Shown: one piece after another, positions 12,557 to 14,956 of the stretch
How the letters are laid out: every line of letters starts with the position of its first letter
Numbering within the stretch: the first letter of the stretch is position 1
Notes under the pieces: generated by a model
The model's input: only the letters and a program-made list of their open reading frames with translations
Databases searched by the model: none
Told to the model about the DNA's origin: nothing
NCBI GenBank assembly: GCA_902599495.1
Contig: CACKFY010000008.1
Location: forward strand, 1-39,363
Length of the DNA: 39,363 nt
Origin: an uncultured Pelagibacteraceae bacterium
Lineage (GTDB): Bacteria; Pseudomonadota; Alphaproteobacteria; Pelagibacterales; Pelagibacteraceae
Direction: 5' to 3'
Program-made: the position numbers and the translations under genes

Positions 12557-13588
12557 ATGAAAGAACAAATAGCAGCCCAAAAAATAAGACTTTTCGCTAT
12601 TCTATCATTTGTCATGCCTTTGATAGCGATAAATTTATGCTTATTAATTTTTTATTATTTAGGAAACATTAAAGTTTATGAAAGTATTGATTGGAAGGAT
12701 AATATTACAGTAGGAAATTTTGATCAATATTTAGGAGATAGTGGAAAAACAAGTTTATTTGATTGTCCCAAATACGAAATTTCATCATCAAGTTTTATTC
12801 TGAGTAATGGAAAAAAAATAGAAAATACTCGTACTAATTTAGATAAATATAAAACTAATTTAAGTACAAGTATAAAAAAAATTGAGTTTATCCACTCAAA
12901 AGAAATTAATAAAAAATGTATTAAGAATTATTTTTTAGCAAAATCACTGGTTAAATATTTTAATTTAGAGCCTAGTTTTATCAATTTACAAGAAACTAAT
13001 AGTGGATTTAGCCCTATTAGTAATCCATATTTTTATGGGGAAGTTTCAATTAGCAGAACGGCAAGATATTTTCCTGCTACTTTAATTTTTAAACCATTAA
13101 TTATTTTAAGTGCTCTTTTATTGTTTTTATATTGGTTAAATAATTTTAAATTTTTTTCTTTCTTAAAAGAAAAAGGGAAATTAGACAATTTTTCAAAAGG
13201 TTTTTTTTATTTAGGAATATTATCATGCATATTTTTAATTTTACATTCAATTTTTTTAGGAGTTAATTTTGAGAGTAAACTATATAACCAATTTAGAAAG
13301 TTCGTAATAACAGCTTTTATTTTTTCAGAAGTCGGTGCTCAAATTTATTTAACAATTACTCTAAATAAGTTTAAATTAGTACTGTCAGAATATATAAAAA
13401 GTTTTATATTAAATTTAAAAATCTTATTTGTTTTTACAGTTTTCATTATTACAATAATTTCCCTTTATGTATTGGCATTTAAAGATCCATCTACAAGTTT
13501 CAAAAACATACTTGAGTGGAATTATTTTGCAGCATTATTAATTTATTATTTATTAAGTAGAATGATGTGGAGGAAGAAAAAACTTTAG
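12557..13588 (+). CDS. Membrane protein of unknown function
   Basis: 343 residues, not recognised. There is one N-terminal membrane anchor (about 11-35), a 130-residue extracytoplasmic region with cysteines (Cys in FDCPKYE and NKKCIKNY) that could form a disulfide, then five further membrane segments around 175-195, 215-238, 245-268, 285-306 and 318-335. The end is strongly basic (RKKKL), suggesting a cytoplasmic C-terminus. Codon use is extremely AT-rich, similar to the poorly conserved genes nearby. It follows the 27-residue basic protein gene by 14 bases and its 3' end touches the RNA candidate on the opposite strand. Confidence 0.85.
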   Translation: MKEQIAAQKIRLFAILSFVMPLIAINLCLLIFYYLGNIKVYESIDWKDNITVGNFDQYLGDSGKTSLFDCPKYEISSSSFILSNGKKIENTRTNLDKYKTNLSTSIKKIEFIHSKEINKKCIKNYFLAKSLVKYFNLEPSFINLQETNSGFSPISNPYFYGEVSISRTARYFPATLIFKPLIILSALLLFLYWLNNFKFFSFLKEKGKLDNFSKGFFYLGILSCIFLILHSIFLGVNFESKLYNQFRKFVITAFIFSEVGAQIYLTITLNKFKLVLSEYIKSFILNLKILFVFTVFIITIISLYVLAFKDPSTSFKNILEWNYFAALLIYYLLSRMMWRKKKL

Positions 13589-13765
13589 CCCACACACCTT
13601 TCGGTGCGTAGACATAAAGTTATGGTTCGTCGTTGTAGGCGCTACCGCCGAACCCACCCGATCAACCATTTTAGCGCTACTCAGTTGACCTTTCTGCCCT
13701 TTAAGCTTGAACCTCTCGGTTTTTCCTTAATTGGCCAGTTAAGAGTTGCCTCTTAATTAAAACCA
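13589..13765 (-). ncRNA. Candidate structured noncoding RNA, family not identified
   Basis: The largest intergenic gap is clearly richer in G+C than its surroundings, as structured RNAs are in AT-rich genomes. Read on the minus strand it shows a 7-bp hairpin with a GCAA tetraloop (13739-13756), a 7-bp stem GGUCAAC/GUUGAUC (13684-13690 with 13660-13666), a GUUCG/CGAAC stem (13625-13629 with 13649-13653) enclosing a GC-rich hairpin, and a 7-bp hairpin with a GAAA tetraloop (13592-13609), followed by a run of T. In two stems the minus strand has a G-U pair where the plus strand would have A-C, and both tetraloops are GNRA only on the minus strand. It lies downstream of mnmA. Signatures of tmRNA, RNase P, SRP and 6S RNA were not found. 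Exact ends are uncertain. Confidence 0.68.
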
Positions 13766-13825
13766 TTAAACCATAATAAAAAAAAAAACGTATCACTTAT
13801 TAGTTGTCAAATATTTGCTTGTGGA

Positions 13826-14956
13826 TTAAGTGGATAAATTTTTATTAAAAGTTCTGTCTATCCATCCTCCACCTAGAACCTTATCCCCAGTCTCATCATT
13901 TAAATAAAATACACACGCTTGACCTGGAGAAATGCCGCTTTCACCTTCTAAAATATTTACTTCAGCTTTTTTATTATCTATTTCGACTTTGGCTCTTAAA
14001 AGCCTACCTGTGGATCTGACTTTTATTTTAATTTCATTTTTAAATTCATCAATATTTCCCAAAATATTTAATTCTCTTAAAATTATTTTATTTATTTTTA
14101 ATGTCTCTTTTGGACCAACAACTATAGTATTATTTTTGCTGTTTATTTTGACTACATAAAGTGGATCTTTATCAGCAATTTTAATTCCTCTTCTTTGTCC
14201 GATAGTATAATTTATAATTCCTTCATGCTTTCCAATAACTTTGCCCTCAATATCTAAAATATTTCCAGGTTTAAAAGACTCAGGTCTAAATTTTTTAATG
14301 ACTGAACCGTAGTCTCCATTTGGAACAAAACAAATATCTTGGCTGTCTGGTTTTTCAGATACATTTAGATTTAGTTTTTTTGCAATATTTCTAGTTTCTG
14401 TTTTTTCAATATCACCCAAAGGGAACCTTAAAAAATCAAGCTGTTCTTGTGTAGTGCTAAATAAAAAATAACTTTGATCTCTTGAAAAATCTTTAGCTCT
14501 ATACATTGAGCTCTTTCCATTTGCTTGAACTCTTTTTATATAGTGACCGGTAACTAAAACGTCTGCTTTAAGATATTTTGAATATTTAAATAAATCTCTA
14601 AATTTAACTGTTTGATTACATTGTACACAAGGTATTGGGGTTTCCCCAGAAGAATAACTGTCTATAAAATTATCTATAACTTCTTCTTTGAATTTTTTTT
14701 GATAATACAAAATTTTATGATTGATATTTAATTGTTCAGATACTCTTTTTGCATCTAAAATATCTTGTCCAGCACAACACTGTCTTCCATCTTTTGATTT
14801 TTTTGCGTCATCGTATAGTTTTAAAGTTATTCCTGTAACGTCATAACCCTCTTCTTTCATTAAACCTGCTACCACCGATGAGTCTACACCACCAGACATT
14901 GCAACTACGACTTTAATATTTTTTTTTGGTTTTTTTATTCCTAGTGAATTGTTCAT
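13826..14956 (-). CDS. mnmA: tRNA-specific 2-thiouridylase
   Basis: Catalyses ATP-dependent 2-thiolation of U34 in tRNA-Lys, -Glu and -Gln. The PP-loop SGGVDSS is at residues 21-27. The two catalytic cysteines fit Cys113 in [11 protein letters not shown] and Cys209 in [13 protein letters not shown] (135-139) and the C-terminal barrel ([15 protein letters not shown]) are also typical. Length 376 is normal. The CQCN spacing gives an extra cysteine, Cys110, next to the first catalytic one. It is divergent from the DUF3553 gene at 14994, with an AT-rich 37-base gap. A T-rich tract and the RNA candidate follow its stop. Confidence 0.97.

Follow-up and report, generated by a model that had tools for sequence, protein, structure and literature searches.

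An IMES-2 RNA gene lies downstream of mnmA

The stretch of DNA analysed here (the window; 39,363 nucleotides of contig CACKFY010000008.1, from the uncultured Pelagibacteraceae bacterium assembly GCA_902599495.1) carries, between mnmA and a convergent gene, a GC-rich island with 47% G+C at 13589-13765 versus 30% across the window. An Rfam 15 scan identified minus strand 13622-13763 as an IMES-2 RNA (RF02035), with 151.7 bits against a gathering score of 54.7 (E 7e-40), so that by covariance model the RNA belongs to this family. The match is the sole one in the whole window, complete over model positions 1-141, and the window RNA has the same P1-P4 hairpins as the Rfam family, without any family difference. 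The features of the locus are the following.

13622-13763, minus strand: IMES-2 RNA, full Rfam model 1-141 (RF02035, 151.7 bits, E 7e-40)
13739-13756, minus strand: hairpin P1, 7 bp, GCAA loop; 100% of cells paired and double changes in 2/7 pairs (alignment A2, see below)
13694-13738, minus strand: hairpin P2, with a purine-rich internal loop (GAAA / CAAG) and a GAGA-capped tip; double changes in 7/11 basal and 2/4 tip pairs
13660-13690, minus strand: hairpin P3, whose loop bears the 5' strand of the kissing helix; double changes in 8/8 pairs
13672-13678, minus strand: kissing strand AGCGCUA in the P3 loop; covaries with 13638-13644, 6/7 positions pairing in the window
13624-13654, minus strand: hairpin P4, with a conserved non-standard step (G.A in 38/48, A.G in 10/48 sequences)
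13638-13644, minus strand: kissing strand UAGCGCC in the P4 loop; covaries with the P3 loop
13577-13620, minus strand: predicted intrinsic terminator, GAAA-capped hairpin followed by T6; overlaps the end of the convergent gene
13770-13775, minus strand: -10-like TATGGT; predicted start at about 13763
13791-13806, minus strand: conserved element CAACTAATAAGTGATA, with AGTGAT at the -35 position and a 16-nt spacer
13818-13837, minus strand: tandem DnaA-box-like site TTATCCACT-TAATCCACA; overlaps the mnmA stop codon
13826-14956, minus strand: mnmA, upstream same-strand neighbour outside the RNA gene (PF03054, 1e-74)
12557-13588, plus strand: convergent neighbour, no Pfam match at E ≤ 0.01

A sequence-only reading had described the island as an unidentified structured RNA, either a novel SAR11 RNA or a diverged known one. 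A structured SAR11 RNA is indeed encoded on the minus strand, but its identity is a known one: the clear match to RF02035 disposes of "unidentified" and leaves the existence of the RNA standing. The island is thereby confirmed as a genuine structured SAR11 RNA gene of an already catalogued family, which is not novel and is known as IMES-2. Beyond the known family, we report, as computed here, a P3-P4 kissing helix, the architecture of the promoter and of an upstream site, three gene contexts and true absences. Several details of that reading held. The minus strand folds above chance (-68.4 kcal/mol versus -47.6 ± 4.0 for shuffled sequences, z -5.2), none of 200 dinucleotide shuffles folding as well, and the GNRA loops are present: P1 has GCAA, P2 has GAGA and the terminator hairpin has GAAA. 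The minus orientation was also correct, both the Rfam match and a terminator-like site being found on this strand. The proposed boundaries, 13589-13765, were slightly off, with the RNA body occupying 13622-13763, the terminator 13577-13620 and the promoter region extending to 13837.

The RNA had further been said to lack the signatures of tmRNA, RNase P, SRP and 6S RNA, in agreement with a scan of 13400-13900 with filters relaxed to E ≤ 10, in which only two weak plus-strand matches appeared besides IMES-2, both under their own cut-offs; ARAGORN found no tRNA or tmRNA in the window. A protein-coding reading, based on a 50-amino-acid GTG-started frame on the plus strand (13604-13756), was rejected because complete IMES-2 RNAs, which are 138-144 nt long, vary by non-multiples of three and conserve base pairs.

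A literature search, which did not extend to the original 2009 Nature description, found no paper on IMES-2 function, the only one to carry the name being on the giant squid genome, and the available portion of a Red Sea study (PMC5069720) does not mention IMES-2. The SAR11 RNAs of Meyer et al. 2009 likewise occupy GC-rich intergenic islands, according to the available portion of that paper (PMC2704228), in which the table for HTCC1062 comprises tmRNA, 4.5S, RNase P, riboswitches and new motifs; in that portion neither 6S nor IMES-2 is named for HTCC1062, some of the listed regions being nameless.

Comparison among relatives supports four hairpins in series

The minimum-energy fold of the window RNA taken alone is partly unlike the comparative fold, its 5' end being paired with the 3' arm of P4; the relatives support P4. 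Two alignments were used, one of 39 distinct sequences aligned without structure (A2) and one of 48 sequences including the divergent genera g7 and g9, aligned with a model lacking the kissing helix (A3). With the four hairpins and the kissing helix counted together, standard pairs make up 93.4% of the 1789 cells of A2 and 92.7% of the 2193 cells of A3, with double-sided changes in 28/46 and 34/46 pairs, respectively. For A2, none of 500 shuffles reached any of five measures, and sliding the partners by 1-3 columns lowered pairing to 32-42%. The consensus hairpins are therefore kept with covariation in both alignments, and the RNA passes the covariation test among homologues that had been proposed from the sequence. 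This comparison shows a row of four hairpins in which the loops of P3 and P4 pair with each other. One step of P4 is never a standard pair, and P2 and P3 are joined by AAA in 48/48 sequences; the longest run of letters invariant in all 48 is 4 at most.

P4 exists in two forms. A second allele (AAG..CAG stem end, with P3 loops GUAC, GUGC or GAAC) was seen at L036, L037, L039, L041, L042, L044, L046 and L047, in some members of genera g1, g2, g3, g6 and g10, with the commoner allele in other members of g1, g2 and g3. The occurrence of two P4 alleles across genera suggests that the 3' half of IMES-2 has been exchanged between genera.

The fold bears on the idea that IMES-2 is a SAR11 stand-in for 6S RNA that binds RNA polymerase. 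6S RNA is a stable free-standing bacterial RNA of a length similar to IMES-2, and its fold is a rod with a central bubble. With the 6S model (RF00013), 0/30 SAR11 genomes gave a match at E ≤ 1, complete ones included, in a search whose control matched 5/14 known genomes (4 above the cut-off); this apparent vacancy speaks for a replacement. However, IMES-2 folds as a row of hairpins unlike 6S and yields no 6S match at E ≤ 10, and a general replacement is unlikely because the 30 negative genomes include some without IMES-2. We regard this reading as highly improbable. IMES-1 (RF02034) bears a sister name to IMES-2, from the same survey; 0/29 SAR11 genomes matched it above the cut-off, with 7 weak matches below. 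Assignment of the window RNA to either IMES-1 or 6S was rejected.

The P3 and P4 loops covary as a kissing helix

In the window, P3 loop AGCGCUA pairs with P4 loop UAGCGC. The pairing was followed in 123 rows merged to 111 distinct RNA sequences, identical ones being merged; some genome records are possibly the same genome. Both loops are present in 108. The helix is 4-7 bp long, mostly 6, and six core types are fully matched among these 108 sequences (P3/P4): GCGC/GCGC, GCAC/GUGC, GUAC/GUAC, GUUC/GAAC, GAAC/GUUC and GUGC/GCAC; UCGC/GCGA occurs in two sequences. Cores with A-U pairs have a seventh pair, A-U, closing the helix (19/48). The four core pairs are kept in 48/48 sequences of A3 and all five inner pairs in 96/111 distinct sequences. 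One-sided changes were found in 12/108, namely P3 UCGC with P4 GCGC (11) and P4 GCGA with P3 GCGC (1), leaving 4 or 5 pairs. Among 31 further distinct sequences at least 5 pairs are present in all, with a one-sided change in 8/31.

Taken alone, the kissing helix contains 28 double-change cells versus 7.0 ± 1.8 in shuffled alignments, with 0/500 as high, and its covariation score is 0.252 versus 0.106. The counts of double-change pairs and of pair types are ordinary (423 and 432 of 500 shuffles as high), because only two kissing pairs vary on both sides. Several cores are non-palindromic, so P3 pairs with P4 and not with another P3; the GCGC and GUAC cores are palindromes, for which self-pairing is also possible. 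The covariation would fit an intramolecular kiss and a domain-swapped dimer alike and cannot tell them apart. The similar GUAGCGC letters of both loops in the window could be read as two copies binding one shared target; this was rejected because the loops of other genera differ and complement each other. In genera g7 and g9 (L049-L057) inspection by eye suggests that the two loops of the kiss have changed places, the P4 loop having a GUAGUGCU form resembling P3 elsewhere and the P3 loop a GGUAGCACUU form resembling P4 of other genera.

IMES-2 is carried by a free-standing cassette in three gene contexts

Three unrelated gene settings of IMES-2 were found, and the gene looks like a free-standing cassette whose order is tandem DnaA-box-like site, AGTGAT-like element, -10, RNA and terminator. 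The first setting has mnmA upstream and a convergent gene downstream; the second has ogt downstream and, upstream, DUF2938 or small-ORF genes, beyond which an integrase-like gene is often found; the third has SNase or SelO upstream and, in g9, a convergent SRAP gene downstream. The location downstream of mnmA noted from the sequence is thus true here but incidental, other genera having ogt or SNase/SelO genes beside IMES-2. In 25/57 compared loci, the 1.5 kb upstream of IMES-2 include a tyrosine recombinase (PF00589), e.g. L023:201-1175. Relatives of the convergent gene 12557-13588, which overlaps the IMES-2 terminator in the window, adjoin IMES-2 in 20/57 compared loci.

Upstream of the RNA, an AGTGAT-like hexamer is present in 119/119 loci, with its end 28-31 nt from the RNA; 86 of these loci have a -10 hexamer with at least 4/6 letters at 15-18 nt; further loci contain the AGTGAT-like hexamer in 38/38 cases versus 9/691 random places. 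A stricter long pattern, CAAC..GAT, matches 99/122 upstreams and is not universal. The window has a 16-nt spacer, and transcription is predicted to start at the base where the RNA model begins. A sigma-70 consensus scan of 13500-13900 found no site, so the -35 departs from the canonical form. The CAACTAATAAGTGATA pattern has a single copy without mismatch in its own genome; with up to 2 mismatches the promoter-element pattern occurs at 80 places there versus 110 for a backward control, and six other such loci of this genome that were scanned gave no Rfam match. Downstream of the RNA, a hairpin with a T-run is present in 100/118 loci versus 71/528 random places; the test failed in 18/118 loci, the U-run being short or interrupted in eight that were inspected. 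Identical upstreams were counted once, and L154 (decayed) as well as L167 and L124 (cut by the locus end) were left out of these promoter and terminator counts. A dedicated promoter with two conserved upstream elements and an intrinsic terminator, giving a predicted transcript of approximately 180-190 nt, are strongly indicated.

These arrangements can be set against a riboswitch or other cis-acting leader. Such a role finds support in the ogt context, where ogt follows the terminator on the same strand; among L002-L030 the ogt start codon comes immediately after the terminator, and read-through could reach ogt. Nevertheless, a same-strand leader position was found among relatives in the ogt context only, the promoter elements travel with the RNA, and both the mnmA context and the g9 SNase/SRAP context have a convergent gene next downstream. 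Outside the ogt context a cis role is excluded because, with the next downstream gene convergent, there is nothing to control. We consider a cis-acting function extremely improbable.

A tandem DnaA-box-like site accompanies the RNA gene

In 106/116 distinct upstreams a 9-mer shares at least 8/9 letters with TTATNCACA, versus 8.4% of 1050 control windows. A full match to the TTATCCACA-type box is present in only 19 upstreams, and many have TTATCCCCA or weaker second boxes. Expressed as a matrix, the site consists of two abutting 9-mers, TTATCC[AC]CA and [CT][AT]ATTCACA, and its distance from the AGTGAT-like element is mostly either 46-48 or 55-57. All 116 upstreams outscore the highest of 806 control windows in an in-sample test. 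Among 36 held-out upstreams, which belong to the same lineages as the training loci, 35 exceed the highest of 673 controls and 1 is without a site.

For tests across contexts, loci were assigned by short peptide motifs and locus numbers, so that single assignments may be wrong (62 ogt, 46 mnmA, 9 SelO/SNase, 3 other). With a matrix trained without ogt loci, 61/61 upstreams of the ogt context scored higher than the 99th percentile of 1079 controls, though the weakest of them, at 5.9, was below the highest control (10.1). In the whole genome G009, whose context is SNase/SelO, the IMES-2 site ranks first with a matrix from 44 mnmA-context upstreams, third with one from 61 ogt-context upstreams and first when trained on both. 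At loci without IMES-2 beside them the site was found in 0/15 ogt and 0/12 mnmA loci (3 of the latter from genomes with IMES-2 elsewhere), and the best score at these 27 loci, 6.8, is below the lowest in-sample score, 14.0. Since the site is present with IMES-2 and absent from ogt and mnmA loci without it, we conclude that it belongs to the RNA gene.

The letters of the tandem site resemble DnaA boxes, which would make the SAR11 DnaA a candidate reader. TTATCCACA is given as the DnaA-box consensus, and DnaA is described as being also a transcription factor, in an excerpt of PMC8203912; an excerpt of PMC4468827 states that many Caulobacter promoters carry DnaA boxes. Control of the IMES-2 promoter by DnaA may be taken as a lead. 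An origin of replication was rejected for the complete genome G009, because the cumulative GC skew has its minimum at 160 kb and its maximum at 770 kb, with IMES-2 at 303 kb; no cluster of the same boxes marking an origin was found in this genome. In G043, for which 20 stretches were sampled, the IMES-2 copy is near the maximum of the cumulative GC skew.

IMES-2 is found in one SAR11 family and is truly absent from some of its genomes

RF02035 was matched above the cut-off in 168/247 genomes of the window's own family and in 54/147 genomes of an order sample, with one match each at E ≤ 0.001. Under stricter filters, by which weak matches are lost, a model built in this analysis matched 2/289 genomes of a class sample, both of the own family, and RF02035 was above the cut-off in 1/349 genomes of a phylum sample, the window's own genome. 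A conserved 18-base pattern from P1-P2 occurs in at least 120 public contigs; among the matches listed, 113/120 hold IMES-2, all titled Pelagibacteraceae, Pelagibacterales/SAR11 or Candidatus Pelagibacter, and the other 7, which lack it, are records of two SAR116, Smithellaceae, Negativicutes, Leptolyngbyaceae, Burkholderiales and Nitrospinaceae. A weak RF02035 match outside the class (L343:1501-1617 of G644; 22 bits, E 0.003) is probably due to chance. IMES-2 was thus detected in a single SAR11 family only, with one copy in each genome that has it, and some complete genomes of that family are without it.

Within g1, the genus of the window, 14 genomes have no match; 12/14 also lack an mnmA match, which in the remaining 2 is cut by the contig end or directly followed by it, so these absences are probably assembly gaps. 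Genus g4, by comparison, includes one-contig genomes of 99-100% completeness without IMES-2. In the g4 genomes lacking a match, a model including divergent members reached E 0.2 at best, and inspection of the ogt locus by eye showed the gene before ogt extending right up to it (e.g. L118-L120). The absence in g4 is real. Three genomes of g5 and g12 gave no match above chance. Viral carriage was examined and rejected: the 18-base pattern occurs at 5 IMG/VR loci, none of which has IMES-2 (three of the contigs being covered in part), and phage records gave only one 24-base match, with E 0.7.

datA and DARS are DnaA-binding DNA sites. By analogy, the RNA could be secondary to a DNA site of this kind, or the cassette could be a selfish or mobile element. 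The tandem DnaA-box-like site would agree with this, as would the presence or absence of the whole cassette at the ogt locus, its different places between genera and the integrase-like gene nearby in g4. On the other hand, each of the 168 matching genomes has one copy, selection on the RNA is strong and acts pair by pair, no IMES-2 match was obtained at the five viral loci bearing the pattern, and in G009 the gene lies away from the origin. This reading is highly improbable.

The same dispensability bears on a base-pairing small RNA, which would regulate mRNAs in trans via short unpaired segments and use its fold for stability only. Many regulatory small RNAs are dispensable, free-standing units, and IMES-2, with its own promoter and terminator and its absence from some genomes, has this appearance. 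Against this reading, invariant runs are of at most 4 letters in 48 sequences, the sequence elsewhere mostly drifts within the limits set by the structure, and the kiss already occupies the exposed loops. Antisense action is a possibility that we hold to be unlikely.

A protein-binding RNA acting in trans is the favoured explanation

We consider that IMES-2 is probably a trans-acting structured RNA with its own transcription unit and a regulated promoter, and that it is probably bound by protein. The RNA would be made from the dedicated promoter with its two upstream elements and would end at the intrinsic terminator. We infer that the kiss fixes P3 alongside P4 so that the two make up a single compact body, and that this folded platform acts in trans, most likely by holding a protein rather than by antisense pairing. 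The protein might make contact with the invariant AAA that joins P2 to P3, with the purine-rich internal loop in P2 and with the G.A step in P4. An activator recognising the tandem TTATCCMCA / YWATTCACA site, for which DnaA is a candidate, would control expression at the promoter. A more specific version, in which IMES-2 is a replication- or growth-coupled RNA, switched on by DnaA or by another regulator of the same site and controlling a protein in trans through its kissing-loop body, is speculative and taken as a whole unlikely.

If true, this would constitute a dedicated RNA switch, carried on a cassette that is gained and lost, in some of the ocean's commonest bacteria. An excerpt of PMC13198564 ranks SAR11 first in abundance among the heterotrophic bacteria of the marine plankton and states that transcriptional regulators are few in oligotrophs whose genomes are reduced. 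IMES-2 is single-copy and conserved in structure; its kissing helix offers exact compensatory mutants and its promoter cassette a bait site for the regulator. Related genomes with and without IMES-2 at one locus, moreover, make its function open to comparison. A decayed IMES-2 was observed in the Pelagibacteraceae genome AG-365-E11 (L154:263-381), with P1 and P2 intact, P3 broken off and P4 missing.
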